DNA from: Solobacterium sp.
Lineage (GTDB): Bacteria > Bacillota_I > Bacilli_A > Erysipelotrichales > Erysipelotrichaceae
Reading direction: 5' to 3'
NCBI GenBank assembly: GCA_017469885.1
Contig: JAFUFO010000032.1
Coordinates: 1 to 33,763 of the forward strand
Length of the DNA stretch: 33,763 nt
This document shows positions 3,013 to 24,752 of this stretch, in pieces. How positions within the stretch are numbered: position 1 is the first letter of the stretch; the number at the start of each line of letters is the position of its first letter. Below the pieces are notes generated by a model. The model did not search any database, had not been told where the DNA came from, and saw nothing but the letters and a program-made list of their open reading frames with translations. Position numbers and translations under genes: made by a program.

Positions 3013-3858
3013 ATGATGCGTGATGTATTTGTGCCGTTCTGCAATGACCGGATGTTCTGTTCTGTCCTGATGAGAAACCCGGATCTTGCCAGAGAACTGC
3101 TGGAACTGATTCTGGAAGTAAAAATCGAGCTGGTCGAATGTATCAATGCCCAGCAGGTGCTCAATTATTCGACGGACAGAAAATCCGTCCGTCTGGATGT
3201 GTTTCTGAAAGACGGTCAGAAAATCACCTATGATCTGGAAATGGAAACCGGCAAAAACCCTGGCCGGCTGAAAATTCTTCCGATCCGTTCCAGACTGTAC
3301 GGCGGAGCGATCGATATGGAAATGTATCCAGCAGGAGCCAACTACAGTGATGTAAAACCGGCATATGTCATCTTTCTCTGCCTGCACGATCCGTTTGGCA
3401 GAGGACTGGCAAAGTACAGCTGTTCCGTAACCTGTACACAGGATCATTCTGCAGGAGTACAGAACGGTCTCACCTATGTGTATCTGAACTGTAATGCGAA
3501 CATCTGGAATATTTCTGACGAGCTGCACAGTGTTCTGTCCTGCATCCGGGACCGGACAATCTGTGAAACCGAACTTGTGAAGCGAATCGATTCTGTCGTG
3601 AGACAGTACAACGAAGATTGTGAGTGGAGGCGTTGGTATATGACACTGGAACAGAAATTAAATGAACGTTTTGAGGACGGAAGAGACCTGGGAATTGAAC
3701 AGGGAATAGAAGAAGGAAGAAATCAGGAGAGGACAAAGACAATCACCGCAATGATCGAAAACGGTTTTAATGACAGTATGATTATGTCTGTCTTTGAAAC
3801 TGTCACCGCCGAAGACATTGCGGTGATTCGCCGGCAGATGGCGCAGGCATCTCAATAA
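3013..3858 (+). CDS. Rpn-family recombination-promoting nuclease / PD-(D/E)XK transposase-like protein
   Basis: A 281-aa protein of the Rpn (PDDEXK_2, transposase_31-like) group. The core VRLDVFLKDGQKITYDLEME (59-78) gives Asp62 and Glu76 of the nuclease motif; the family's usual E-M-Q reads E-M-E, so the Gln is replaced by Glu78. The early FVPFCNDRMFCSVL segment is also typical. The C-terminus holds a charged helical stretch (DLGIEQGIEEGRNQER) as in many Rpn proteins. AAGGAGGG ends 7 nt before the ATG at 3013; an upstream TTG in frame has no such site. Family members are metal-dependent DNA endonucleases that stimulate RecA-independent recombination, with links to phage defence. It stands alone, convergent with the ABC operon. 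Confidence 0.88.
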   Translation: MMRDVFVPFCNDRMFCSVLMRNPDLARELLELILEVKIELVECINAQQVLNYSTDRKSVRLDVFLKDGQKITYDLEMETGKNPGRLKILPIRSRLYGGAIDMEMYPAGANYSDVKPAYVIFLCLHDPFGRGLAKYSCSVTCTQDHSAGVQNGLTYVYLNCNANIWNISDELHSVLSCIRDRTICETELVKRIDSVVRQYNEDCEWRRWYMTLEQKLNERFEDGRDLGIEQGIEEGRNQERTKTITAMIENGFNDSMIMSVFETVTAEDIAVIRRQMAQASQ

Positions 3859-3865
3859 GGAAAAC

Positions 3866-3891
3866 CGGCGGAGGAATCAATCCCTCCGCCG
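3866..3891. terminator. Bidirectional terminator between convergent genes
   Basis: A perfect 9-bp stem, CGGCGGAGG / CCTCCGCCG, with an 8-nt loop. On the minus strand it is followed by GTTTTCC. It separates the Rpn gene from the ABC exporter operon. Confidence 0.8.
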
Positions 3892-3910
3892 TTCATATAT
3901 TGGACAATAT

Positions 3911-5701
3911 TCACTCAAACTGGCTTGCGTACATCTTGTAATAGGCACCTTTTGCGCGCATCAGTTCATCATGGGTTCCCTGTTCCACCACATTGCCATG
4001 GTCCATCACAAGAATGTGATCCGCATTCTGAATCGTGCTGAGCCGGTGGGCAATCACAAAGCAGGTCTTGTTTTTCATCAGGGAACGGATGGCTTTCTGT
4101 ACCTGCCGTTCCGTTGTGGTATCGACGTTGCTGGTGGCTTCATCAAGTATAAGCATGTTCGTGTTATACAGCATTGCCCGGGCAATTGTTAACAACTGCT
4201 TCTGTCCTTTGGAGATATTCCCGCCGTCTTCGGTGATCACGGTATTGTATCCCTGCGGCAGACGCATGATGTAGTTGTGGATGCGGGCGGCCTTGGCTGC
4301 CTGCACAACCTCTTCCATTGTCGCATTCTCCTTGCCGTAGGCAATATTGTCAAAGATGGTTCCCTGAAACAGCCAGGTATCCTGCAGGACCATCGCATAA
4401 TTGCGGCGCAGGCTCTTCATCGTATACTGGCGCTGCGGTTTTTCATCCAGCCGGATGACCCCGCTGTCAGGATCGTAGAAGCGCATTAACAGATTGATAA
4501 TGGTTGTCTTTCCGGCACCGGTATGTCCGGCAATCGCAATCGTCTCGCCGGTCTTCGCCTCCATGTTCAGATGATGGAGCACGGTCTTGCCCGGCAGATA
4601 GCCGAAACTGACATCCTCTGCCTCGACATGGCCATGGCAGTCTTCCAGCGTTTCCGCATGTTCAATATCCTTACATTCTTCCGTCTGGTCCAGCAGCTGG
4701 AATACCCGTTCTGCCGCCGCAAGTGCACTGAAGATTTCATTGATGATATTGGAGATCTCATTGATCGGTCCGGAGAACTTGCGGCTGTACAGGACAAAGC
4801 TGGAGATCTGTCCGAGCGATACCACTTCCAGCATATACAGCACGGCACCGCCCATACCGATTGCGGCCAGGCCGAAGTTTGAAATCATACCGATGGTGGG
4901 ACCCATCCGCATGCCCATACCGTCGGCGTTTTTATATGCCTCAGCCGCAGCCCGGTTGATCTTCGAGAACTTCTCGGAGATCCGCTCTTCCTGCGCATAG
5001 GCAAGGATGGTCTTCTGTCCGGTGAACATCTCTTCCGCAAAGCCGTTCATCGTGCCGTAGGAGGCCGACCGCTTTGCGTACAGGGGACGGGTGATCTTGC
5101 TCATACGGCGGGTGAACCAGATCGATACCGGTATCGTAAACAGCATGCATATCACCAGCGGAATGGAAATCGTACACATGATGATAAAGCTTCCTGCCAC
5201 GGTCACCATACTGGTGAGGATATGAATCACATCCGCCGAAAGGCTGGTGGAAACCACATCGATGTCATAGGATACCCGGCTGATGATATCGCCGGCCTGG
5301 TGCTTGTCAAAGTAGCCGACCGGCATGCGCATCAGCTTGGCAAAGACATCCCGCCGCATGTTTTCGGCGACCTGTCTTCCGACCCGAGCCATTCCGATGG
5401 AGATCAGGAAGCTCAGGATATTGGAGCCTACATACAGTCCCAGCATGATGAATGCATAGTGCCGCACCAGTCCCATGTCGATCTGTCCGATGCCGGCTTT
5501 ATAGCCTTCTTCTGCGGCGGTAATCGCCTTTCCCGCAAAGCGGGGTCCCAGGAGATTGCCGATATTGGAGAAAAAGGAACAGATCAAAAGAATGAGCACG
5601 ATCCACTTATACTCCAGAAGATACCGGATGATCCGGATCAATGTGCCTCTGGTGTCCTTTGGTCTCTCTTTTTTTCCGCCGCGGTCACCGCGTCCCGGCA
5701 T
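3911..5701 (-). CDS. ABC exporter, permease-ATPase subunit with catalytic Walker B (heterodimer partner 2)
   Basis: A 596-aa type IV ABC half-transporter. The transmembrane domain covers about 20-325 and the nucleotide-binding domain about 355-590. Walker A GHTGAGKTT is at 392-400, Q-loop Gln440, Walker B NMLILDE ends in the catalytic Glu521, and the H-loop is His552. The signature at 495-500 reads NISKGQ instead of LSGGQ, so it is degenerate. This is the pattern of the BmrD/TM288-like subunit of asymmetric exporters: the site built from this Walker A/B and the partner's intact signature hydrolyses ATP, the other does not. Start at 5701 has AGGAAGG 7 nt upstream. It begins 24 nt after the partner gene. 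Likely exports drugs, lipids or peptides. Confidence 0.93.
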   Translation of the reverse strand: MPGRGDRGGKKERPKDTRGTLIRIIRYLLEYKWIVLILLICSFFSNIGNLLGPRFAGKAITAAEEGYKAGIGQIDMGLVRHYAFIMLGLYVGSNILSFLISIGMARVGRQVAENMRRDVFAKLMRMPVGYFDKHQAGDIISRVSYDIDVVSTSLSADVIHILTSMVTVAGSFIIMCTISIPLVICMLFTIPVSIWFTRRMSKITRPLYAKRSASYGTMNGFAEEMFTGQKTILAYAQEERISEKFSKINRAAAEAYKNADGMGMRMGPTIGMISNFGLAAIGMGGAVLYMLEVVSLGQISSFVLYSRKFSGPINEISNIINEIFSALAAAERVFQLLDQTEECKDIEHAETLEDCHGHVEAEDVSFGYLPGKTVLHHLNMEAKTGETIAIAGHTGAGKTTIINLLMRFYDPDSGVIRLDEKPQRQYTMKSLRRNYAMVLQDTWLFQGTIFDNIAYGKENATMEEVVQAAKAARIHNYIMRLPQGYNTVITEDGGNISKGQKQLLTIARAMLYNTNMLILDEATSNVDTTTERQVQKAIRSLMKNKTCFVIAHRLSTIQNADHILVMDHGNVVEQGTHDELMRAKGAYYKMYASQFE

Positions 5702-5725
5702 ACACAGACCTTCCTTTCTGTTTCA

Positions 5726-7480
5726 TCATTCCTGCATGGCTCCCATCTGAATCTCACAGATATCCCGGTACGGTGCACACATCTCCATCAGTTCTTCATG
5801 CGTGCCGTAGCCGATGCACGTTCCGTTATCGAGCACCAGGATATTCGTCATATTCATCACACTGCTTACCCGCTGGGCAATCATGACCATCGTGGCATTG
5901 GGATAATTCTCTTTGATCGCATTGCGCATGGCGGCGTCGGTCCTGTAGTCCAGGGCCGAAGAGCTGTCATCGAGAATCAGGATCTCCGGTCGTGCGGCTA
6001 ATGCACGGGAAACGAGAATCCGCTGTTTCTGTCCGCCCGAAAGATTGGCGCCCCGGATCGCCGCCTCATGGTCCAGTCCTTCACTTAAGGAATCGATGAA
6101 CTCATCCGCCATCGCACTCTTTACCGCAAGGGTAATATCATCGCTTTCCATATCCCGTCCGAAGATAATGTTTTCCTTCAGGGTATCCTGGAAGATCATG
6201 TCATTCTGAAAGACGGTCCCAAACTTACTGCGCAGCTCCCTGCGCTCATAGGTACTGACGGGACGGCCATCTACAGAGACGGTTCCCTCATCTGCCTCAT
6301 AGAAGCGCATCATCAGATTGATGATCGTGGTCTTTCCGGACCCGGTCGGGCCGATGATGCCGAGGCTTTCGCCCTTCTTCAGCACAAAGCTGATGTCCTG
6401 GAGGGCATTCTCTCTTGTTTCACCCGCAAAGTCTTCGCTATTGTCGCTGCCCTCGCCATAGGCAAAGCTCACATGGTCAAAGCGCACGGCTTCTTCACTG
6501 TCCGTGTGTTCTATTCCTTTTTCCACAAGCAGTTCCTTATTCTCCGCCTGTAATACCGCATCGATGCGGTCCGCGCTGGCACTGGCCTTGGACATGGTCA
6601 TGAAGATGCGGTTGAGTCCCATGACGCCCATGGCGATCATGTTGAAATAGGTCAGGAAGGCCAGGATCACACCCGGCTTCATTAATCCCTGATTGACTCT
6701 GGATGCGCCGATGAGCACGACCAGTGTCAGGCCCATGTTCAGACACATCTGCATTAACGGAGACGGCATCGCCATGATGGTTGCGGCCCGGACATCCGTC
6801 TTTTTCATTTCTTCATTGGCAGTCCTGAACCGGCGGATCTCATAGTCTTCCTTGCTTAATGCCTTGACGACCCGGATGCCGGTGATGTTTTCCCGCATGA
6901 TGCGGACTACGGTATCGAGCTTTTCCTGTACCTTCGCATACATCGGAATGCCGCGGGAAGAAATAAATATAATGATCAGTACGAGCACCGGCATGATACA
7001 GACCATGATCATTGCGAGCTCCCTGTCCATGACCAGGGCTACGCTGATTCCCCCTACCAGCAGGATCGGTGCCCGTACACAGAGCGTCTGAAACTGCTGT
7101 ACGGCAGACTGCACATTATAGCTGTCACTGGTCATACGGGAAATCAGGGAAGGAAGGGAGAAGGCGTCAAACTGTTCCCCGGTCAGATTCATCGTTTTTT
7201 CAAACAGGCTCTGGCGCACTTCATAGCTGATCTGATGTGCATTGTTAATTGCCCTTGTGTTCGCAAGCACATTAAAGGCGCGGCAGAAGATGGCCACCGC
7301 AAACATCATCACACCCCAGAACAATACCCGCTTCAGGTCATTGAGGGGCACGATGTCATCGATGATATGTTCGAGAATATACGGCAGTAACAGCTCGGAC
7401 ATCGTGCCGATCAGCTTGATGAAAATGACCAGCACCACCGCTCCGCCGTACTTCTTCAGATACCGGAAGATCAGCTTCAT
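5726..7480 (-). CDS. ABC exporter, permease-ATPase subunit with degenerate Walker B (heterodimer partner 1)
   Basis: A 584-aa half-transporter. The membrane domain spans about 1-300 with several hydrophobic segments and the ATPase domain about 330-580. Walker A GPTGSGKTT is at 377-385 and a canonical LSGGQ at 480-484. Walker B reads LILDD, with Asp505 in place of the catalytic Glu, and the switch position is Gln535 (IAQR) instead of His. The changes complement those of the downstream subunit, so the two almost certainly form one heterodimer with a single active ATP site (BmrC/TM287-like role). The start at 7480 follows GAGGAG with 5-nt spacing. A strong promoter lies at 7585-7613. Confidence 0.93.
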   Translation of the reverse strand: MKLIFRYLKKYGGAVVLVIFIKLIGTMSELLLPYILEHIIDDIVPLNDLKRVLFWGVMMFAVAIFCRAFNVLANTRAINNAHQISYEVRQSLFEKTMNLTGEQFDAFSLPSLISRMTSDSYNVQSAVQQFQTLCVRAPILLVGGISVALVMDRELAMIMVCIMPVLVLIIIFISSRGIPMYAKVQEKLDTVVRIMRENITGIRVVKALSKEDYEIRRFRTANEEMKKTDVRAATIMAMPSPLMQMCLNMGLTLVVLIGASRVNQGLMKPGVILAFLTYFNMIAMGVMGLNRIFMTMSKASASADRIDAVLQAENKELLVEKGIEHTDSEEAVRFDHVSFAYGEGSDNSEDFAGETRENALQDISFVLKKGESLGIIGPTGSGKTTIINLMMRFYEADEGTVSVDGRPVSTYERRELRSKFGTVFQNDMIFQDTLKENIIFGRDMESDDITLAVKSAMADEFIDSLSEGLDHEAAIRGANLSGGQKQRILVSRALAARPEILILDDSSSALDYRTDAAMRNAIKENYPNATMVMIAQRVSSVMNMTNILVLDNGTCIGYGTHEELMEMCAPYRDICEIQMGAMQE

Positions 7481-9383: not shown

Positions 9384-12300
9384 TCAGAGAATCATCTCAT
9401 ACAGGTCACATACCGCCTGTACAAGTGCGCCCTCTGTGTTCAGCGCTGAGGTTCCCTGATGCGCCGGCAGATAGTTTGTCACAAACCAGTACACCGCAAC
9501 ACCGATGCAGGCAAGGACCACAACTGCCAGAACGATCAGAAGGACTTTATTTCCGGATTTCCCCTCCGGTTCTTCATCCGCTTCTTCGTCTTCCGTATCC
9601 TGCGCAAGCAATGCTTCAATCTGCTTATGCACGGTCGTCCTCGTCAGCATCCCCGAATCCTCGTCACCGCCCGGCAATGCACGGCTTACCGGTACTGCCG
9701 GTGTGACGTCTTCCGTCTGCTTCAGCTCCAGGACTTCCGGCTCTGAAGGTTTCTCTGGTTCTGCCGGTACCTTCTCGGTCTCTTTCTTCTCAAAGGCCTC
9801 AAGCTTTTCCTGATTCTCGCGGTAGATCTCTTCCCACTTTGTGCCGATGGCTTCGACTTCTTCGCTCAGCGGATAGGAGATATCCCGGCTTGTGAACTTG
9901 AGGGACAGATTCCGTCCGGCTTCCTTGAAGGAGGTAAAGGCACGGCACAGTTTCAGGAATGCCATTTCCTCAAGACCTCCGGCCTCAAAGCCTTCCAGCT
10001 TTGTATTGAACTCCCGGATTCCGTCCGACAGCTTTTCCAGTTTCCGGTCTACCTTTTCCGGAATGGAATCCACAAACGCATCCGCTTCGGAAGTATCCGA
10101 GTCAAAGGATACATTCTTATCCCCGTCCTCATTGACCTTCGGTTTGATTCCGTTCTGAATCTTTAACATCAGGGTGCGGGCTACCGTTGAACTGAAGTTA
10201 TTCCAGTCCTCCCGGAAGGATTTGAGCTCCGCATCTTTCTGGTCCAGATATGACAATGCCTCAGCGGTATATGCCTTCACCGCAGGATCTTCCTCCGGCT
10301 GTACAGGTTCTTTCGGTTCCGGCTCTGTTTCTTCGGCCGGTTCTTCACTTACAGCGTCTTCTTCGGCATCTTCCGGTTTGTCCGTCTCCGGTTCTTCGGA
10401 TTCCGATTCGTTTTCTGCGGGTTCAACAGATTCTTCTGTGACGGTTTCCGCTTCCGCCTCGTCCGATACCGGCTCCTTTTCCGACTCACTTACGTCGGAT
10501 TCCGGCGCTTCCGGTTCCGGCTCCTGTTCCTCAGCTTCTTCCGGCTCAGTTTCTTCCGCAGTTTCCGCTTCCGGATCGTTGGAATCGTCGTCTTCACGTT
10601 TTTCTTCCTCTGACCCTTCCGGTTCCTTTTCGGACGCCTCCTCCGGAGCTTCTTCCAATACTTCCTCAACCGGTTCCGGCTGTGTTTCCGGTTCCCCGGA
10701 CTGTTCTGTCCCTTCGGATTCTTCCGTGGCTGTCTCCGGTTCTGCAGCTTCTTCCGCAGCGGTCTCCGGGACGTCTGTTTCCTCAATTTCTGTATCCGGT
10801 TTTTCGGAATCTGATTCATCTTCTGCGGATTCTTCCGCAGCGTCCGTTTCTTTGACGTCCGCATCTTCGCTCACTGCTTCCGCTTCGGGTTCTTCCGGAT
10901 GTTCCGGTTCAGCCTCAGCTTCTTCCTCTGCTTCAGCCGGTTCCTCTGTGACCGGTTCGGTTTCTTCCGCGGCTGTTTCCGGCTCCGCAGGCGTCTCCTC
11001 TTCCGGTTCCGGCAGTTCACGTTCTGCCGGCTCCTGACTGGATTCAGTGAATTCATGAATTGCGGTTTCCATCGCAGTCATGTTGAAACCAAGGGTATCG
11101 AAAGCCGGATCACGGTCTTCCAGAACATCCATCGGAAGGTCTTCAAACAGATGCTCGGCCGGTGCCTCCGGATTCACAGCTGCTTCTTCCGCTGCCGGTT
11201 CGGCGCCGTCTTCCGGTTTTTCTTCCAGGAAATCTCTGACCAGATCATCCGAGTCGCCCATGTCACTCATCGCTTCATCGACTTCGGTGGAACCTGTTTC
11301 CTCTTCCGGTTCAATATCTTCGAGTCTGACCTCCGGTTCAATCTCTGCGCCGGTCAGTTCTTCGAGCTGTCTGCGAAGATCCACTTCTTCCATGCCCAGC
11401 GCTCTGCGCAGGTCATTCAGCAGAATGATCTTCATCTCGCTGCCCTTCTGTTTCAGTTCCCGTGCGGCCGCGATCTTTGTCTCTCCCGCTTCTGCCGGGT
11501 TACATACCAGATAGTCGGTCCGGGCAGTCACCAGATTTCTGCGGATACCGCCGTTTGCCTCGAGACGATTGAGTATTTCCGGGAAGTCCGCAAGACCTGC
11601 GGCTCCGGTAAAGACGAAGAGTGCATCTTCCACATTGATCTGCGGATTGCGCGCAATCTCCTTGCCGTGAAGTGAGATCCACTTCCATTCCTGTTTCAGC
11701 GCACTGCGCAGACGGTCTGCCCGGAACTTCTTCGCAATGTCTTCCCGGGTCTGCGGTTTTTCGTCAATGTGCGGTTTTGCCGGTTCTGTGCTGATCGGCT
11801 GTGCGGTTTCTGTGCTGTTTCTAACAATTGTTTCCAGCCAGTTATATGCCGCTTCACGGAACTGTTCATCATTTCCTTCACTGTTGAAATAGATATTTCC
11901 CTGATAAAGGTCATCCTGATCAAGCACCAGGAATACAAAGGATGCGCCGTCTGCCTCCGGATCGGTTTTTCCCGAGGTCTGTGCCGCAACCACGGCATAA
12001 TCCTTACCGCCGCATACGTACTCCACCGGATAGTGTTCATTGAACTTGTTGTTTCGTTTGAGATTTGCGGTCAGGAACTGAACCAGCTGGCTCTGCACAT
12101 CCGCTTCTGTGCCGTTTTCAAACAGCACACCGAAGCCGGAGTTCCGTACCGGATTCCCGATATTCACACAGAAGCTGCCTTCTGTGTAGCGGTTGAAGCC
12201 GCCGTAATAATCTGCCGGAATTGCCGCAAGGGTATAGATGCCATGGAGCTTGGTCAGGAATTCCGGATCGTTGACTTCGGTTTCCGGTGCCTGGTCAAAG

Positions 12301-15300
12301 GTGATCATCCGATCCGGCAACAGTCCGGTAAGACCGCCCAGTGTAAATTCATGGTTTTCGTGATAGGTCAGATCACGGTAGGTCGGAACCACTGCCTTTT
12401 TCTCTTCCGGCTGCTTATCAAGTTCCGCAAACTGTGCCCGCAGGTCGTTCATATACGGAACGGCCGCATGAACCGTATCATCGATGCCGGTGACGGTTTC
12501 ACTTCGCTCCGCAATGCCGTTTACGGCAGGACGGAATGTCTCAAGCAGCTTTGTCACGGCAGGACTTTCCGGGTTGCGTGCCCTGAGCGTTTTGATGGCG
12601 GAGATGCCGGACTCCAGGAAATTACTGTAGTCTTTCGCCCAGGTATCCAGGTATTCCTGCAGGTCTGCCCGGAACGCAGCTTCCCCGTCCACACCGTATG
12701 CGCCCTTTGCGTAACGCTGTCTTGCGAGTTCCACATTGTCGCGGCAGCTGCGCTCAATCACCGTATAGCGGAGATCACAGGCTTCCTTCCACTCGGACGC
12801 AAGCCGTGCAGTCAGCGGCTGACTGCTGAAGTATGTATCATTGAGTGCCTTTGTCTCTTCAAAGTCCTCCGCAGATGTCATCGTGCGGACCCATTCGAGC
12901 ACCATCCGGTCACAGGAAGGAATGTCTTCCTCTTCTGCGCCGAGCACCTGTGCACGCATGGTCTTGATATAACCCGGCATGACGATACTGATGTTGTACA
13001 TGAAGTTGCCTTCGTTATAGCCGGCGATAATGGATCCGGCCGGATGTTCTTTATTCAGTACGATCAGGCGGTTCTTTTCCGCAAGCAGACGCAGTGCGTC
13101 GGCCTGCCAGTAGTTGGATTCTGTCAGTAATGCGCAGATCTGCGGGGTTAACAGACGGGTATCGATCCGGTTCTTTCCGGCTTCTGCGCCGGCATAGAAG
13201 GTAATACGGGAACTGTTGTAATCCGCATTCTGCTCGCCCGGCAGCCAGGCGATAAAGTCTCTGCCTTCCGCATGCGGTTCCAGACGGAATCCATCCGGAA
13301 TGGAAATGCGGTAATGTTCATTTCCGCAGTTTCTGCCTTCCGAATAGGTAAGCTGGTACTTCGGATTGCGGATTTTCTGTTCCATGACATCGGTGTCATA
13401 AATCCGCTCCCGGAATTCATATTCTTCCTCCGGCTCTTCTTCGATGACCGGCGCGCTTTCTTCTGCCGGTGCACTTTCCGGCTCCAGAACGCCGAAGTCA
13501 TTCATCGCCTTGGTCAGTTCCAGCGAATCCGGGAACGATGCCTCTGCGACCGGCTCCGCGAAGATATCGGAAACATCCGGTTCATCTGCCGCTTCCGCAG
13601 GAATCTCTTCTTCCGGAAGGTCCACAGCCTCCGGCAGATCATCTTCCGCTGCGGATACCGGTTCTTCGGCCACAGGCTCTGCGGGAAGTTCCGGCAACTC
13701 CGGTTCATCAATTCCGGTTTCCGGTGTTTCCGCCGCAGGTACGTCAGTGACAGCTTCAATCTCGGGTTCCCTGTCGCCGAACAGCTCTTTCATGACATCG
13801 GAGAGTTCCGGCGGTACCGGCGCTTCCACACGGACCGGCTCCGGTTCAGGCTGCGGTTCGAAAACCGGCGAAATGACAGGCGCTTCGGCTTCCGCAGCCG
13901 GAGTCACTTCCGTTTCAGCAGGCTGTATCTCCGGCATGCCCGGCACTTCTTCTGTGACAGGTACATCCGGTTCTTCCGCTGCCTGCGGTACTTCCGGTGT
14001 GTCTGTTTCTGCCGGTTCTGCCGGTGTTTCCGCCGCAGCTTCTTCCCCGTCCCTTGTTGCGGCGGTCAGCTCGCTTGCGGCAGCGTACTGTTCATATTCG
14101 TGCTCGACGGTGCCGAGCAGTTCAAAGACCTCTTCCACCGAGAGGTTGTTTATGGCTTCATCATCATAGGGTCTTCCCTGGGCGCGCAGCGCTTCCTTCA
14201 GCGGGCTGTCGAGCTTTTCTTCCTTCGGCGTTTCAATACGCTCCGGATAGTCCTTGCCCCAGTCGGGATCCACTTCTTCCATCTGCCGGAAGAGCTGTAC
14301 TTTCTGCGCAAGCTCCGGATCATCCAGCACATCGAGGGCGCGCTCGTACCACTCCATGGCCTTCTTCATATTGCCGTCGGTGCCGTAGGCATACTGATAA
14401 CAGTTGCCGAGGTTGCGCATCGCAACCCCATAGCCCTGTTCGGCTGCGGACTGAAACAGCGAGAAGGCTCTGCGCTTGTCCTGCGGCAGACCCGTTCCCT
14501 GCATGAGGAAGGTACCCAGGTTGTTCTGGGCCTCCCGGTTGCCGAGATCGGCACCGTGTTCATACAGTTCTGCGGCTTTCTCCAGATTCTTTTCCACGCC
14601 GCGGCCGTGTTCATACAGCAGGCCCAGCACCCAGTAACCGAATCCGTTTCCGGCCTTTACGGACTGTTCTGCCCAGCGGCGGCTGGCCGCATAGTTCCCT
14701 TCCGCATTGTCCCTGTCCAGTGAACCGGCAAGCACCATATAGGAAGCCGCAAGTTCTGCCATTGCCTGGGCATCATTTATCTTTGCCTTGGCCTCATCTT
14801 TTGCCATGGTCTCATACTGCGCGGCAGCCTGCTTTGCCTTGGGATGCCCTGCCCGGGCTGCTTTATGCATGAGCTCGGCAGCCTGTTCAAAACTGTGCGA
14901 CGTGCCAAAGCCCCGTGCAGAGAAGAGACCGACCTTATACAGCGCATCCGCATCGCCTTCTTCCGCAAGGCGGTTCATCCAGAAGTAGGCCTTCTTCGGG
15001 TCCGGCGCAATTTCTTCCGGTTCATAACCGGTGACATATTTGTTTGCGATATCCCGCATTGCTTCGGTGTCGCCGTCTTCCGCTTCCTCCAGCCGTGCTT
15101 CGAAGGCGGACAGCTCCATGCCAAGGGCAGAGACGAGTTCATTTTCATACGGACGGGCAAGCTCCACATTGCCGACCATGTTCCGTACGGCCAGCGGCGG
15201 ACGGTTCTTTCCGCGCACCCGCTGGAAGGTAGGTTCATCCCCATCGCGGCGTACGATGATGCCTTCCCGGTCAGGGTCGTAATCCGGGTAGAGCTTCGCA

Positions 15301-15671
15301 AATCCGAAGCGGTCACTGTACCGCTTGAGGACAGAGGCAGCGCGCATGAATAACAGGAGCTGTTTCATTCCATCGCCGCTGATCTTTCCCGAACGATGGA
15401 ATTCCGGCTTTGCATTTCCCGGGTGAATCACGATGGAAAGGTCCGGCTCCATATAGGCACCGAATTCATTCCGAATATACAGCTCGAGCTTTGCGTCTCC
15501 GTTTTCAGCGCTGGCTTCACAGTGGAACGGCTGTTCGATGATATCAATGACAAAGTGATCGCCGTCTTCGATCAGGAATCCGTCGATCTTCTCCTTGTCT
15601 GTCTTATAGGCGAGCCACTCATTGACTCTGCCTTCCATAAAGAATTTCAGACCTTTGATGTTATCTGCCAT
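9384..15671 (-). CDS. Giant Sel1-repeat / BRCT-like single-pass membrane protein
   Basis: A 2095-aa protein of unknown function. In order: an N-terminal globular domain (1-190); Sel1-like alpha-helical repeats (about 200-460), for example YWVLGLLYEHGRGVEKN and AQNNLGTFLMQGTG; an acidic Pro/Glu-rich linker (about 540-800); a large globular segment (about 800-1330); a BRCT-like domain (about 1345-1425) with FVFTG, an EANGG turn and TDYLVC as in NAD-dependent DNA ligase BRCTs; a second, longer Glu/Pro-rich linker (about 1445-1800); a helical region; and one transmembrane helix near 2040-2062 with some 33 residues beyond it. There is no signal peptide, so most of the mass should be cytoplasmic. 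GGAGGC lies 8 nt before the ATG at 15671; a further 36 upstream codons do not look coding. Sel1 repeats and BRCT domains suggest a scaffold. Confidence 0.85.
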   Translation of the reverse strand: MADNIKGLKFFMEGRVNEWLAYKTDKEKIDGFLIEDGDHFVIDIIEQPFHCEASAENGDAKLELYIRNEFGAYMEPDLSIVIHPGNAKPEFHRSGKISGDGMKQLLLFMRAASVLKRYSDRFGFAKLYPDYDPDREGIIVRRDGDEPTFQRVRGKNRPPLAVRNMVGNVELARPYENELVSALGMELSAFEARLEEAEDGDTEAMRDIANKYVTGYEPEEIAPDPKKAYFWMNRLAEEGDADALYKVGLFSARGFGTSHSFEQAAELMHKAARAGHPKAKQAAAQYETMAKDEAKAKINDAQAMAELAASYMVLAGSLDRDNAEGNYAASRRWAEQSVKAGNGFGYWVLGLLYEHGRGVEKNLEKAAELYEHGADLGNREAQNNLGTFLMQGTGLPQDKRRAFSLFQSAAEQGYGVAMRNLGNCYQYAYGTDGNMKKAMEWYERALDVLDDPELAQKVQLFRQMEEVDPDWGKDYPERIETPKEEKLDSPLKEALRAQGRPYDDEAINNLSVEEVFELLGTVEHEYEQYAAASELTAATRDGEEAAAETPAEPAETDTPEVPQAAEEPDVPVTEEVPGMPEIQPAETEVTPAAEAEAPVISPVFEPQPEPEPVRVEAPVPPELSDVMKELFGDREPEIEAVTDVPAAETPETGIDEPELPELPAEPVAEEPVSAAEDDLPEAVDLPEEEIPAEAADEPDVSDIFAEPVAEASFPDSLELTKAMNDFGVLEPESAPAEESAPVIEEEPEEEYEFRERIYDTDVMEQKIRNPKYQLTYSEGRNCGNEHYRISIPDGFRLEPHAEGRDFIAWLPGEQNADYNSSRITFYAGAEAGKNRIDTRLLTPQICALLTESNYWQADALRLLAEKNRLIVLNKEHPAGSIIAGYNEGNFMYNISIVMPGYIKTMRAQVLGAEEEDIPSCDRMVLEWVRTMTSAEDFEETKALNDTYFSSQPLTARLASEWKEACDLRYTVIERSCRDNVELARQRYAKGAYGVDGEAAFRADLQEYLDTWAKDYSNFLESGISAIKTLRARNPESPAVTKLLETFRPAVNGIAERSETVTGIDDTVHAAVPYMNDLRAQFAELDKQPEEKKAVVPTYRDLTYHENHEFTLGGLTGLLPDRMITFDQAPETEVNDPEFLTKLHGIYTLAAIPADYYGGFNRYTEGSFCVNIGNPVRNSGFGVLFENGTEADVQSQLVQFLTANLKRNNKFNEHYPVEYVCGGKDYAVVAAQTSGKTDPEADGASFVFLVLDQDDLYQGNIYFNSEGNDEQFREAAYNWLETIVRNSTETAQPISTEPAKPHIDEKPQTREDIAKKFRADRLRSALKQEWKWISLHGKEIARNPQINVEDALFVFTGAAGLADFPEILNRLEANGGIRRNLVTARTDYLVCNPAEAGETKIAAARELKQKGSEMKIILLNDLRRALGMEEVDLRRQLEELTGAEIEPEVRLEDIEPEEETGSTEVDEAMSDMGDSDDLVRDFLEEKPEDGAEPAAEEAAVNPEAPAEHLFEDLPMDVLEDRDPAFDTLGFNMTAMETAIHEFTESSQEPAERELPEPEEETPAEPETAAEETEPVTEEPAEAEEEAEAEPEHPEEPEAEAVSEDADVKETDAAEESAEDESDSEKPDTEIEETDVPETAAEEAAEPETATEESEGTEQSGEPETQPEPVEEVLEEAPEEASEKEPEGSEEEKREDDDSNDPEAETAEETEPEEAEEQEPEPEAPESDVSESEKEPVSDEAEAETVTEESVEPAENESESEEPETDKPEDAEEDAVSEEPAEETEPEPKEPVQPEEDPAVKAYTAEALSYLDQKDAELKSFREDWNNFSSTVARTLMLKIQNGIKPKVNEDGDKNVSFDSDTSEADAFVDSIPEKVDRKLEKLSDGIREFNTKLEGFEAGGLEEMAFLKLCRAFTSFKEAGRNLSLKFTSRDISYPLSEEVEAIGTKWEEIYRENQEKLEAFEKKETEKVPAEPEKPSEPEVLELKQTEDVTPAVPVSRALPGGDEDSGMLTRTTVHKQIEALLAQDTEDEEADEEPEGKSGNKVLLIVLAVVVLACIGVAVYWFVTNYLPAHQGTSALNTEGALVQAVCDLYEMIL

Positions 15672-16993: not shown

Positions 16994-18841
16994 TTATTTT
17001 GTGCAGCTTTCCACCCACTCGATGAAGTTGTCCGAGGCGTTTCCGGTGCGCTCTGCCTGGGTATGACCCTGGCCCCATACGGTTTCGAAGTCTACGCTTT
17101 CAACAGAATCATAATTCTCCAGTGCCAGCGCAAGGTTCATCTCGGTGGACAGTGCGCAGTCCCCCTGGTTAAGGCCGGTGCGGATCCGCCAGTACTTCGC
17201 AACGGTGCTTGTTTCATATCCTTCTTCGCTTTCCAGCAGGTAGTACAGCGGTGTATACATATCGACTCTGGTCTCTGCGGTATTGCCTGCACTGTCGGTT
17301 TTCAACAGATCCTGAAGATATTCGTCCGCATATTCATTTCCAAGTTCGGAGAGGATATTTGCCAGTGTGCTGTCAAAGTGTGCGCCGCTTCCGTCGCCGT
17401 ATCCAAACAGCGTGTTCTCACCCTGTCCGGCATCGAGCTGATCAAATGCGCCGAGGCTCTTGGAGGCATTCTTCAGTGCCTTCACAAAGGAAGCAATATC
17501 CGTGATCTTCGCGGTGTTGGTTTCCGCATCATAGGTAACCCATTCACCGTTCGCATTCAGCGCATCAATATAATCCTGCACAGTTTCATACGTGCCGGAC
17601 AGGGAGAGTCCGGAGCCGCTTGTCTCAGTGCGGGAAATGTCATCGATTGCCTCAAAATTCACTTCGCCGGATTCTGTATTGTTCTGTCCCATGCCGTCCG
17701 GACGCTGTCCGCCGAAGTCCGGTGCGCCTTCATGACTTCCGGAAGGACGTTCTCCGTTTCCGTGTCCGCCCGGCATTCCGCCGCCCATACCGCCAGAAGA
17801 AGCCTCATACGGGAATTCCGTATCCGCAAGGAAGTTGTTCAGGGACGTTTCTATGACCGACTTCATATATTCGTAATAGGTACCTGCCTGATAAATGCCG
17901 TCTTCGGATTCTTCCAGGGTCAGTACCGTGCCGTTTTCATCTTTGAGTCCGGCATTGTTTACATATTCCGCATAGGCTTCTGCCAGCTGATCGGAAATCG
18001 CCTGTTCTTCTTCGGACAGTCCGTCTCTTGTTACTCCCAGCATCCATTCATATGCCTCATCTGCGGTATCAAGGTTGGTGATCGGGCACCAGCACATCGA
18101 ACCAAGCACCGCATCGCTTACGCCCTGTACCGCACCGATTTCGGTAAGATACGGCTCATACAATGCGCTGTCTCCGGTGGAGCCCATGACGGCGGACTGT
18201 GCACCGCCGCCGGACATACCGAAGGTGAAGATGGATTCCTCATCACCCGGTACGGTGTCATCGGAATAGCGTACATAGCGCACCGCTGCCTTAAGATCGG
18301 TAACGCCTGCCGGCGCACCGGCATCTCTGCCGCGGCAGCCGGCATGGACATAGACAAATCCGGCACTGGTATATTCCGTCACGGATTTGTATTCACTCAG
18401 CGCGGACTGTGCGGAATAACCCGGTGTATTGATCGGCATGACGATCGGTGCCGTCTCCGCGGTATAGCCGTTTACTTCCGTTTCTGAATTGATTTCGCAT
18501 GTGTAAGTTCCATCTCCGTTATCCGTCGCATTCATGTATGCGCCGGGCACGAATACGGCCAGCGTTTCATAATTCTCATCCGCCGGCGTTTCACAATAGG
18601 AAATGCCGATCTGGTAGTAGACGTCATCCGCTTCGTTGTACTGCCATGCGGAGGCGTCAATTTTCGAAAGGTTTGTCGTAACCGCTGTTGTATTCGTATC
18701 AGCGGTTTCTGTATTCGCGGCTTCCGCCGCTGCGGCAGTTTCTTCCGGTTCTCTGACAGAAGTATCTGTATCGCAGCCCGCAATGCTGAGAACAAGTGCT
18801 GTGCCAAGGATTCCGGTTAGTATGTTTCTGCATTGTTTCAT
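16994..18841 (-). CDS. Tannase-like lipoprotein (subtype B tannase family)
   Basis: A 615-aa secreted lipoprotein. The signal peptide ends in a lipobox, SIAGC, with Cys23 as the lipidated residue, followed by an acidic Ala/Thr-rich linker to about residue 60. The alpha/beta-hydrolase core carries the nucleophile elbow GMSGGGA (Ser210) shortly after GCRGRDAG, as in bacterial tannases, and the C-terminal WGQGHTQAE supplies the catalytic His. Tannases hydrolyse galloyl esters of plant tannins, so this would act on dietary polyphenols at the cell surface. A Gly/Met/Pro-rich low-complexity stretch at about 345-385 interrupts the lid region. AAGGAG lies 11 nt upstream of the ATG. Family placement is good; substrate is inferred. 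Confidence 0.82.
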   Translation of the reverse strand: MKQCRNILTGILGTALVLSIAGCDTDTSVREPEETAAAAEAANTETADTNTTAVTTNLSKIDASAWQYNEADDVYYQIGISYCETPADENYETLAVFVPGAYMNATDNGDGTYTCEINSETEVNGYTAETAPIVMPINTPGYSAQSALSEYKSVTEYTSAGFVYVHAGCRGRDAGAPAGVTDLKAAVRYVRYSDDTVPGDEESIFTFGMSGGGAQSAVMGSTGDSALYEPYLTEIGAVQGVSDAVLGSMCWCPITNLDTADEAYEWMLGVTRDGLSEEEQAISDQLAEAYAEYVNNAGLKDENGTVLTLEESEDGIYQAGTYYEYMKSVIETSLNNFLADTEFPYEASSGGMGGGMPGGHGNGERPSGSHEGAPDFGGQRPDGMGQNNTESGEVNFEAIDDISRTETSGSGLSLSGTYETVQDYIDALNANGEWVTYDAETNTAKITDIASFVKALKNASKSLGAFDQLDAGQGENTLFGYGDGSGAHFDSTLANILSELGNEYADEYLQDLLKTDSAGNTAETRVDMYTPLYYLLESEEGYETSTVAKYWRIRTGLNQGDCALSTEMNLALALENYDSVESVDFETVWGQGHTQAERTGNASDNFIEWVESCTK

Positions 18842-19835: not shown

Positions 19836-19853
19836 TTAACCTGTTGGTTTAAT
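19836..19853. promoter_or_regulatory. Operator-like palindrome next to the XRE promoter
   Basis: TTAACCTGTTGGTTTAAT on the plus strand, with inverted arms AACC/GGTT. It touches the -35 box of the XRE gene promoter and overlaps the stop codon of the TROVE-like gene. It matches the site at 21529-21546 at 13 of 18 positions, as nTAACCYGKTGGKTTAAY. Confidence 0.6.
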
Positions 19854-21312
19854 TTTCGGGATAAACGATACAGTCGTATCGTTTATCTTGCAATACAGAA
19901 ACCATGTATTCATAAGGTGTCATGGATACACCATTCATCAGGTTTTTGAATACCTGTACGGACTGTCCAGAGACAAGCTGTACAGAGCCAGCATTCAAAA
20001 GACAATGGAATGTATTATTTCTGGCATCCACATTCCAGAACACAAGATTTGGCATGACATAACCTGCTTCCGAAAACCTTTGGTTCATCTCAGATGTGAA
20101 GTCATGTCGTTCTATCGATGTACATACATCGATCTCCATATCCGTGATTACTACAATTGAAGTTGGAAGCTCTTCCTGTGGAATCTGATGTTCCACTGCA
20201 CTTTGAAGAACAAGTTCAAAAGCCGCTTCCAGATCTGTATTCATATCCCAGTGTGCATTTTCAATCCATTTAATTTTCTCATAGAGTGTTTTACCTTTCA
20301 CTTCTACGAGTTCTGGACGAGCAGAAAAGGTCATAAATCGATTATGAAACAGGCCAGTATTACGTTCCGCAAAATACAATGCAAGACCGATGGAAGTAGC
20401 CATTGGCCTTCCATACATGGAACCAGATACATCAGCCATGATTAAAAAGCGCTGATCGCCTTTCACAAGATCCGGCAATGCCTTCCACTGTGCTTCCAAT
20501 ACCGGATTATTCGAATCGATCCCATACAGCACCTGTTCGACGATGTCATATGGATAAAGCACTTCACCATGGATGGATGACTTACCACTGGCTACAGCTT
20601 CCAGATAAGAAGAAAAACGTTCTTCATCGTTGCGGCGGAAGGCTTTACGATACTTTTTCATGGCATAGGATGGAACAGCATCATAACGAATATAATCCAT
20701 GGCTGACATGGATAAATTGCGTTCTGTGACATTGATATAAGCCCGCAACTGAGACATTACCTTCCGGTATTGTTTCTCAGACATGCCAAAAGCACTGGCA
20801 AGTTTCTTAGCCTGTCTTCTGGTCTTTCGAGAAGAAGCATTCACACTTGGAAGCCACTTTGCAAGAAGGGAAACGGGTTTCCCTTCCAGCATATGACTGC
20901 AGTCTTCCTCCAGCTGCGCTGAAAGAAGTGAAATGACTTCTGCTTCTACCGGTGTGCATAACAGATAGATGAGATCATCCCACCGGCCAAATTCCGCAAT
21001 GAAAGGAAGGTTTGGAATAAGCATATTGGCATAATGCTTCGCCAGTACTTGAAACATGATTCTGCCCGTGCGACGTTCCCCTAATCCACCACGGATATCA
21101 CGTGTATAAAACGCCAGTCTTAAAGCAAGCAATGGATTTTCAATGATTGCTTTTTGGAAGACTGTTTCGATTTCGGAGTCTGTACGATTTCGCATTGCCC
21201 CGCATATGGCAAAACAATCCAAAAGCGCGCTGCCAGATGTACGATGACAATCCGCACCGTTTTCGGTGAAAGTCCAGTTCTGTGTAAGTGCTATGGAATT
21301 AAGAATTGTCAT
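19849..21312 (-). CDS. Ro60/TROVE-like (DUF2828-type) RNA-binding protein with vWA domain
   Basis: A 487-aa protein. The N-terminal half (about 1-275) is a helical-repeat domain with the landmarks TENGADCHRTSGSALLD, FYTRDIRGGLGERR (68-81) and AEFGRWDDL, typical of the TROVE/DUF2828 group related to the ring-shaped Ro60 protein. The C-terminal half (about 285-485) is a von Willebrand A fold with a complete metal site: DVSGS (Asp294, Ser296, Ser298), Thr359-Asp360, and Asp391. Ro proteins bind Y RNAs and misfolded or damaged RNA and act in RNA quality control. AAGGAG lies 9 nt before the ATG at 21312. Its promoter (21501-21529) abuts the same palindrome as the XRE gene promoter. Phages and genomic islands also carry this type, which fits the setting. 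Confidence 0.85.
   Translation of the reverse strand: MTILNSIALTQNWTFTENGADCHRTSGSALLDCFAICGAMRNRTDSEIETVFQKAIIENPLLALRLAFYTRDIRGGLGERRTGRIMFQVLAKHYANMLIPNLPFIAEFGRWDDLIYLLCTPVEAEVISLLSAQLEEDCSHMLEGKPVSLLAKWLPSVNASSRKTRRQAKKLASAFGMSEKQYRKVMSQLRAYINVTERNLSMSAMDYIRYDAVPSYAMKKYRKAFRRNDEERFSSYLEAVASGKSSIHGEVLYPYDIVEQVLYGIDSNNPVLEAQWKALPDLVKGDQRFLIMADVSGSMYGRPMATSIGLALYFAERNTGLFHNRFMTFSARPELVEVKGKTLYEKIKWIENAHWDMNTDLEAAFELVLQSAVEHQIPQEELPTSIVVITDMEIDVCTSIERHDFTSEMNQRFSEAGYVMPNLVFWNVDARNNTFHCLLNAGSVQLVSGQSVQVFKNLMNGVSMTPYEYMVSVLQDKRYDCIVYPEN
19860..19887. repeat. 12-bp perfect hairpin inside the 3' end of the TROVE-like gene
   Basis: GATAAACGATAC / GTATCGTTTATC with a 4-nt loop. It encodes the last residues (DKRYDCIVYPEN) and ends some 9 nt before the stop codon. 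No T tract follows, so it is not a classic terminator. Confidence 0.75.
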
Positions 21313-22385: not shown

Positions 22386-22664
22386 ATGATAAAGTCGTTT
22401 GCGCACAAAGGCCTAAAAGATTTCTTTGAAACCGGGTCAAAAAAGGGCATTCAGCCAGGGCATGCATCAAAACTTGCCAGAATGCTTGATAGACTTGACG
22501 CAAGCACATCGGCACAGGATATGAATCTGCCCGGATACAGACTCCATCCGTTAAAAGGTGACAAAAAGGAAATGTGGTCCGTAACTGTTAACGGAAACTG
22601 GAGAATAACATTTTTCTTTGAGGGCCAAGACGCGTATCTCGTAGACTACCTTGATTATCACTAA
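22386..22664 (+). CDS. higB: HigB-type toxin (RelE/ParE superfamily mRNA interferase)
   Basis: A 92-aa toxin, the normal family length. Conserved HigB blocks are all present: MIKSFAHKGLKDFFETGS at the N-terminus, LPGYRLHPLKGD (48-59), WSVTVNGNWRITFFF (64-78) and the closing YLVDYLDYH. HigB cleaves mRNA on the translating ribosome. The toxin gene precedes the antitoxin, the order typical of higBA. No Shine-Dalgarno sequence is present and the -10 box ends 6 nt before the ATG, so it is probably read from a leaderless message, whereas the antitoxin has a strong ribosome site. That would favour antitoxin production. Confidence 0.95.
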   Translation: MIKSFAHKGLKDFFETGSKKGIQPGHASKLARMLDRLDASTSAQDMNLPGYRLHPLKGDKKEMWSVTVNGNWRITFFFEGQDAYLVDYLDYH

Positions 22665-22680
22665 CAGGAGGTCAATTATT

Positions 22681-22974
22681 ATGATCAGAAGAAAACCAAC
22701 ACATCCTGGGACTGTATTTTTAGAAGATGTAATGAAGCCGTTGTATTTGACTGTTACTGAAGCAGCTGAAATGCTTGGCGTTAGCCGGAAGACGTTATCC
22801 GAATTTGTAAATGAAAAAGCTTCTCTCAGCCCTGAGATGGCCCTAAGAATCAGTAAGGCAACTAACACATCTGCGGAAAGCTGGATGAATATGCAGCAGA
22901 AGTTAACACTTTGGAAAGCTTATCAAAAGGAACCTAAAAACGTTACCGTTTTCCCTTCTGAAGTTTCCATGTGA
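22681..22974 (+). CDS. higA: HigA-type antitoxin (XRE HTH)
   Basis: A 97-aa antitoxin that neutralises HigB and represses the operon. It opens RRKPTHPGTVFLEDVMKPL, the HigA hallmark, followed by an HTH at about 23-62 (LTVTEAAEMLGVSRKTLSEFV). ATG at 22681 follows AGGAGG with 9-nt spacing; an upstream in-frame start at 22651 lies inside higB and is not needed. The gap to the higB stop is 16 nt. Its likely binding site is the palindrome at 22358-22371. Confidence 0.95.
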   Translation: MIRRKPTHPGTVFLEDVMKPLYLTVTEAAEMLGVSRKTLSEFVNEKASLSPEMALRISKATNTSAESWMNMQQKLTLWKAYQKEPKNVTVFPSEVSM

Positions 22975-23525: not shown

Positions 23526-24245
23526 TTAACCCTTGTTGTTTGCACTACCTTGCTGTATATCTCGAAGCAATTCTTCCAGTTCCATCTTCTTGGAAAAATC
23601 ACTGTATTTCATCTGAGCTTCGCCAGCCTTTCCCCGAAGTTCCTCTTCTTCATCCGTCTCTTTGTCAGTGTCAGGAATATAACCAAACTCTTCATGTAAC
23701 ATCTGATCAACTTCTTCCATGCTGAGCACGGATTCCGGGTGATTTCTGGCTTGCTCCTCTGCTTCCTCAAGCGACCGGATTATTTCTTCCCTGCGCTCCT
23801 GTTCAAATCCAATAATCAATGCTTCATGTATTAGAAATGAAAGGAGTTTATGCAGGTAGTGCTGCGTGAGCTTATTATTTGCCACATAATATCCAAGGAT
23901 TTCCTCATGCGGCACAAGGATGCATGAATAAAACTTAGCATTACTTAAATCCTCTTTCAGTTCCTTTTCATAGACCATGCTAAAATCGACATCCTTGCAG
24001 AAGTCCTCGATTATTCGGTAAGCAATGAAGATTTTCGTCTCTCCATCCTCACTTTGACACGGTTTGATGCTTCTCAGCTTATCAATGAATGTGCGAATCG
24101 CCTGTTTGCGATGGTCATAGTATTCGCCGATCAGCATATCCTTGTGGCTCAACCATTCCAGGTCGTCTGGCGGAAAGTCTGCCATATACTGATTTGCGAG
24201 TTCTTCGCTATCTATTTCGCACAGATATTCGTGTACTGTTTTCAT
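23526..24245 (-). CDS. 239-aa protein of unknown function coupled to brnA
   Basis: The ATG at 24245 overlaps the brnA stop as ATGA, so the gene is translationally coupled to the antitoxin. The N-terminal 175 residues look mainly helical (MKTVHEYLCEIDSEELANQY; RTFIDKLRSIKPCQSEDGET) with a central YSCILVPHEEILGYYVANN strand region. The C-terminal 70 residues are highly charged and probably coiled-coil or disordered. No signal peptide or membrane helix. I cannot assign a family with confidence. The position suggests a toxin-antitoxin-linked accessory gene whose expression follows the antitoxin. Confidence 0.72.
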   Translation of the reverse strand: MKTVHEYLCEIDSEELANQYMADFPPDDLEWLSHKDMLIGEYYDHRKQAIRTFIDKLRSIKPCQSEDGETKIFIAYRIIEDFCKDVDFSMVYEKELKEDLSNAKFYSCILVPHEEILGYYVANNKLTQHYLHKLLSFLIHEALIIGFEQERREEIIRSLEEAEEQARNHPESVLSMEEVDQMLHEEFGYIPDTDKETDEEEELRGKAGEAQMKYSDFSKKMELEELLRDIQQGSANNKG

Positions 24246-24457
24246 CTCCAGTTAATTTCTAATTCCTTGTTTTTTGTGGCGCAATCATCAAGATACATGT
24301 TTATTAGGGTCTGATAAGGGATACCGGTTTCACCAGATTTGTTCTTAAAATACTCGATGGTGGTCGGCTTCAGTTTGATTGTTACCGACTTTTTCAACTG
24401 TTTCGCATATGGATTTTTCCTTGGATTCAATTCTTTGATGTTATATTCTTTTCTCAT
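24242..24457 (-). CDS. brnA: BrnA-type antitoxin (ribbon-helix-helix)
   Basis: A 71-aa antitoxin. The ribbon-helix-helix lies at about 24-60 (SVTIKLKPTTIEYFKNKS, then TGIPYQTLINMYLDDCA), with the GIPYQTLIN turn typical of BrnA/CopG-like antitoxins. ATG at 24457 begins 4 nt after the BrnT stop, behind a G-rich GGGGGTGG run that serves as a loose ribosome site; a longer frame would overlap brnT. BrnA binds BrnT and represses the operon. The C-terminus overlaps the next gene by 4 nt. Confidence 0.9.
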   Translation of the reverse strand: MRKEYNIKELNPRKNPYAKQLKKSVTIKLKPTTIEYFKNKSGETGIPYQTLINMYLDDCATKNKELEINWR

Positions 24458-24461
24458 TTTT

Positions 24462-24752
24462 TCACCACCCCCTGACAATCTCAGTGTATTCACTAGCTTC
24501 TTTTTTCGTGGCTTTGCGTGCAGAAATAATTCGAATTACTGTTTCTGACTCCCTGTAACAATGACATACAAGGCATAGGTTATTCCTTTCGCTAATGCCG
24601 ATTAAAAGGAAGCGTTCTTCGTTTTCAGAATGCTCGGGATCATCAAACAATATGGCATTCTCATCAAAGAAAACTGATGACGCTTCAGAAAACGAAATAC
24701 CGTGTTTCTTGATGTTGATTTGATTTTTCTTTTCGTCCCAATCAAATTGCAT
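24462..24752 (-). CDS. brnT: BrnT-type toxin (ribonuclease)
   Basis: A 96-aa toxin of normal length. Family blocks are intact: MQFDWDEKKNQINIKKHGIS at the N-terminus, a central RFLLIGIS strand, and RIISARKATKKE (74-85) near the end. BrnT is a RelE-fold ribonuclease that stops translation until neutralised by BrnA. There is no ribosome site and the predicted transcript starts only about 17 nt upstream. Promoter at 24776-24804. Confidence 0.93.
   Translation of the reverse strand: MQFDWDEKKNQINIKKHGISFSEASSVFFDENAILFDDPEHSENEERFLLIGISERNNLCLVCHCYRESETVIRIISARKATKKEASEYTEIVRGW

Follow-up and report, generated by a model that had tools for sequence, protein, structure and literature searches.

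A predicted tail-anchored protein of Solobacterium that joins Sel1 repeats and a BRCT domain to conserved modules encoded separately in another genome

BRCT domains usually sense broken DNA, and Sel1 repeats are protein-binding modules. According to a review, BRCT proteins are limited in the majority of bacteria to one or two, DNA ligase and a subunit of Pol III (PMC10386641). The single BRCT domains of RFC1, PARP1 and the bacterial ligases constitute one subclass, and in yeast Rfc1 a pocket made up of Thr-Gly-Arg-Lys binds the 5' phosphate of DNA (PMC9359705). Among the known Sel1-like repeat proteins of bacteria (PF08238), the repeats occur in tandem. A search of one literature library found no description of a bacterial Sel1-BRCT fusion.

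Here we describe a gene of Solobacterium sp., from a gut bacterium, whose product combines the two. The DNA analysed, hereafter the window, is a stretch of 33,763 nucleotides representing contig 34 of a 2.66-Mb genome. Like LigA and RFC1, which are its best profile matches, the protein has a single BRCT domain with the motifs F-V-x-T-G, G-G, T-D-Y-L and T-K, but it differs from both in having neither a ligase nor an AAA domain, in the replacement of the pocket Arg by Phe and in the presence of a predicted membrane anchor. Neither Pfam nor NCBIfam matched the adenylation or OB domains of NAD-dependent DNA ligases anywhere in its 2095 residues. Tandem Sel1 repeats are shared with the bacterial Sel1-like repeat proteins; here, in contrast, they are joined to the BRCT domain, to two further domains (A and B), to long acidic linkers and to a C-terminal membrane helix. 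The parts are thus of known kinds, and their combination is new to the collections searched. In the genome itself the sole clear Pfam BRCT match is a ligase-type protein; together with the review cited above, this agrees with the statement in a preliminary description of the gene that bacterial BRCT domains are mostly confined to DNA ligase and a few repair proteins. A second weak BRCT match in this genome (L010), near the start of what appears by eye to be a glycogen-phosphorylase-like gene, was taken as chance.

The gene occupies 9384..15671 on the minus strand; the preliminary description had the coordinates right and left the strand unstated. Its reading frame is open for a further 36 codons, from 15779, and the start was placed at the ATG at 15671 (stop at 9384) because a GGAGG ribosome-binding site just 5' of it favours that codon. 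A terminator-like stem lies 5' of the gene (16092-16075, minus strand), which is probably a single-gene unit. It is flanked by ordinary tannase, hydrolase and esterase genes. The first of these, upstream at 16994-18841, encodes a subtype A tannase (NCBIfam 763.9 bits, cut-off 550). In the closest named relative, a Solobacterium sp. from cattle duodenum (L006), the orthologue is flanked by the same two genes, for an abhydrolase and an esterase.

The chain, all sections of which are encoded on the minus strand, begins with an N-terminal domain (residues 1-185; 15117..15671) without a Pfam match. The Sel1 repeats follow (about residues 186-500; 14172..15116), recognised by Pfam at E = 3.3e-28 with 97.5 bits against a cut-off of 30.7, four of them passing individually. 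An acidic Glu/Pro-rich linker (linker 1; residues about 541-745; 13437..14051; net charge -59) precedes domain A (residues 758-964; 12780..13400) and domain B (residues 1092-1290; 11802..12398). Neither has a Pfam model, and a MOG1/PsbP-like identity entertained for both was dropped since no Pfam match supported it. Directly N-terminal of the BRCT domain (residues 1346-1428; 11388..11636) is a basic helix (residues 1312-1345; 11637..11738; pI 11), with a net charge of +6 over 34 residues the most strongly basic section compared; another net-positive stretch covers about residues 76-185. A second acidic Glu/Pro-rich linker (linker 2; residues 1436-1795; 10287..11366; net charge -142) is succeeded by a C-terminal region, probably helical as judged by eye (residues 1796-1965; 9777..10286), and by the predicted transmembrane helix (about residues 2043-2064; 9480..9545). 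The net charge of the whole chain is -287 and that of the BRCT domain itself -1. With no Pfam model for any of them, domains A and B and the N-terminal domain would be new families.

Codon comparison of the window gene with its L006 orthologue gives an overall dN/dS of 0.18, and this purifying selection across the domains shows that the reading frame is real. By section, the ratio is 0.013 for residues 1-185, the most conserved part of the protein, 0.08 for the Sel1 part, 0.18 and 0.16 for domains A and B, and 0.06 for both the BRCT domain and the C-terminal region, reaching 0.25 in linker 1 (75% identity) and 0.33 in linker 2. Both linkers also differ in length between the two orthologues. 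Low values in the domains and the highest ones in the linkers indicate that the folded modules are constrained while the linkers drift. The Sel1 repeats, the BRCT-like domain, the two Glu/Pro-rich linkers and the membrane helix named in the preliminary description are all present, but domains A and B had been overlooked, as had the fact that conservation is highest in the N-terminal region.

The membrane helix is predicted from hydropathy, being the sole region of the chain above 1.6 on the Kyte-Doolittle scale (maximum 3.15), and is present in L006 too. The same scale reveals no N-terminal hydrophobic signal in the 2095-aa chain. Lys residues lie on the N-terminal side of the helix, and the 31-residue tail after it lacks Lys and Arg. 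From the absent signal peptide, the single C-terminal helix and the positive-inside rule used for membrane topology, we infer that the long N-terminal part is cytosolic; a cytosol-facing, tail-anchored topology fits the sequence.

Evidence for the BRCT domain comes from several comparisons. The isolated segment matches the Pfam BRCT model (PF00533) at E = 0.25 and 12 bits, under the 21.3-bit cut-off, and the BRCT domain of human RFC1 at E = 0.013 with phmmer. A PHROG profile of phage NAD ligases matches residues 1303-1407 at E = 1.4e-4, and a second PHROG, of unknown function, also matches the segment (E = 5.8e-4). An HMM built from two bona fide BRCT domains, one of them from the genome G051 discussed below, gives the segment 24.5 bits, whereas the highest-scoring of its 20,000 shuffled versions reaches 9.3. 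With hhalign, the window/L006 pair aligned to a profile of seven BRCT sequences, including RFC1 and the G051 protein (a BLAST homologue), at 93.6% and E = 2e-7, compared with 1.3% or less for all 120-aa windows of the chain outside the domain. The RFC1, G051, HMM and hhalign results share sequences and so are not fully independent of one another; the PHROG match is independent of them. By these sequence tests the BRCT domain is real. AlphaFold models were excluded as evidence of fold because the alignments were too shallow: a model of 717 residues has a pLDDT of 37, and one of the BRCT domain alone, from an alignment of two near-identical sequences, has a mean pLDDT of 52.6. The latter shows the element order b-a-b-b-a-b-a, as in BRCT domains, and a Foldseek search with this low-confidence model gave no BRCT among the matches listed.

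As read from alignments to the Rfc1 numbering rather than from structure, the window protein, L006 and G051 all retain T, G and K at the positions that form the phosphate pocket in Rfc1, while the Arg is replaced by Phe in the window protein. With three pocket residues kept and one lost, binding of DNA ends by this domain is plausible.

The most informative comparison is with G051, a genome placed in the same genus by a kinship tool. Its 47-kb contig C43 encodes four separate, clustered proteins, each showing homology to a single section of the window protein. Residues 40-517 match an 887-aa protein (37.6% identity, E = 1e-99), residues 766-964 a 1062-aa protein (25.6%, E = 7e-20), residues 1092-1282 a 1401-aa protein (23%, E = 1e-8) and residues 1352-1406 a 423-aa protein (E = 5e-5), these E-values being computed against no more than 12 sequences; searched for across the whole genome, the last three gave E = 2.3e-21, 1.9e-9 and 0.003, respectively. 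The genes for the 887-, 1062- and 423-aa proteins are contiguous and in the order of the window protein (Sel1, A, BRCT). The occurrence of the BRCT gene beside the other three strongly supports both the BRCT assignment and a shared system, and that the domains exist elsewhere as separate neighbouring proteins had escaped the preliminary description. The G051 proteins differ in being separate genes and in having extra DYKDS-type/TPR repeats and DUF6273, and the separate A and B proteins carry hydrophobic, membrane-like helices as read from sequence. The homology makes the window protein a one-chain form of four separate components of the G051 island.

Contig C43 also encodes a PARP, a DEAD helicase with an MrfA domain, a DUF2779 protein, SbcD, an SbcC-like protein, HIRAN, a HEPN_Swt1 protein looking ParB-like, an RNA-polymerase-alpha-CTD/sigma-like protein and a second BRCT protein. 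With 7% contamination listed for the G051 genome, and 34% G+C in C43 against 47% for the window and 36-45% for other sampled G051 contigs, the owner of C43 is uncertain and the island may stem from another lineage. The PARP itself (L037:11071-12564; E = 3e-18) is of bacterial type, has a WGR-like stretch by eye and adjoins the SbcCD and MrfA-like helicase genes. A separate curiosity of the contig is a near-identical N-terminal motif, MKIR[KT]DFVTNSSSS[SG]F, in three proteins (L038:754-2025, 3550-4452 and 5544-6614), among which sits a radical-SAM/SPASM protein (L038:4471-5547). This motif could act as a signal for modification.

The PARP/HIRAN/SbcCD context of G051 is absent from the window. 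The genome of the window yielded no PARP, and a different contig carries its HIRAN genes, so that the one-chain protein, if it functions, does so with most of the G051 island missing. On that other contig (L027:8278-10649, contig C26), two small HIRAN-type proteins, the first over the Pfam cut-off, flank two proteins that by eye look J-domain-like and TPR/Sel1-like, respectively.

Homologues of the central part were found in 3 of 70 genomes of the genus, and the fusion in two of these, the window's own and G014 (92% identity). G014 and L006 probably represent one and the same record, and the fusion has been seen only in the window genome and this one close relative. A search of a collection of genomes of named organisms retrieved the sister species only, and no further convincing member appeared among 170 genomes of the family, 294 of the order, 395 of the class and two sets of 392 from the phylum (overlapping sets). 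Only one island of split homologues was seen. Viral contigs, plasmids and phages contained no relatives of the domains beyond Sel1 matches, one match to the DUF6273 region and ligase BRCT domains; phage BRCT matches were set aside as relatives, the two records opened being LigA.

Since four of its sections correspond to four G051 proteins, the window protein looks like a fused, tail-anchored version of part of a rare system of DNA-damage or defence type. The reading that we favour, with a probability of roughly 0.4, is that it serves a DNA-stress response as a scaffold tethered to the membrane. The BRCT domain, of the ligase/RFC1 class, and its basic leading helix would dock on a DNA end, a nick or a partner; the Sel1 array and the N-terminal domain would hold partner proteins; and domains A and B would sense or bind partners. 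The acidic linkers may space the modules apart and repel non-specific DNA, with the membrane helix keeping the assembly at the membrane. A membrane-anchored Sel1-BRCT protein whose sections occur separately elsewhere beside PARP, HIRAN and SbcCD constitutes a Rosetta-stone link between these proteins, and opens an unnamed DNA-stress or defence system to testing. A bolder version seems improbable at present: the protein would be the membrane-tethered DNA-damage sensor of an undescribed system, one chain bringing DNA breaks to the membrane, where another lineage builds the system from separate Sel1, BRCT, HIRAN and PARP proteins. If true, a eukaryote-like set of damage-response parts would be fused into one giant bacterial chain.

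The favoured DNA-stress scaffold has to be weighed against other readings of the same features. The BRCT domain could serve protein-protein contacts alone, in a chain that is a generic scaffold at the membrane with no connection to DNA. Loss of the pocket Arg, the strongly negative charge of the chain and the protein-binding nature of Sel1 repeats are all in keeping with this, but the pocket T, G and K are kept, a basic helix precedes the domain and the split homologues lie beside DNA-processing genes in G051, which leaves the idea doubtful. More doubtful still is an anti-phage role, in which the protein, like the G051 island, would recognise ends or replication intermediates of phage DNA close to the membrane and trigger defence. 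Mixtures of HEPN, PARP, helicase and ParB-like genes such as that of the G051 island occur in defence islands, NCBIfam relates the G051 BRCT protein to the anti-phage protein GapS2 (E = 7e-7), and the gene has a patchy distribution. However, a PADLOC scan of the protein and four of its neighbours gave no match, the protein has no effector enzyme fused to it or encoded next to it, and its domains lack relatives in the phages and viral contigs searched. The gene lies amid ordinary neighbours, the tannase, hydrolase and esterase, of which the last two are kept in the sister species.

The preliminary description proposed a scaffold at the envelope that takes part in chromosome segregation or cell division, the BRCT domain binding DNA or a phosphoprotein and the tail the membrane. 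The membrane helix and BRCT domain do occur in one chain, but its absence from all but two or three of the 70 genus genomes argues against a core function, and no segregation or division genes were recognised among the flanking genes scanned. The sole evidence from context, the PARP, HIRAN, SbcCD and HEPN genes of G051, points instead to DNA damage or defence. The proposal is consequently unsupported and the least likely of those considered.

Several other genes of the window deserve brief mention. Two small adjoining ORFs at 22386-22974 resemble a HigB-HigA toxin-antitoxin pair by eye, and two more at 24242-24752, on the minus strand, a BrnT-BrnA pair. A DUF2828/DUF7788 protein (19849-21312) matches a phage RNA-binding protein family over its full length (E = 6e-129). 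Finally, the protein encoded at 30866-31765 matches phage superinfection-exclusion PHROGs (E = 6e-12) and also, weakly, a family of host-cell-surface lipoproteins.
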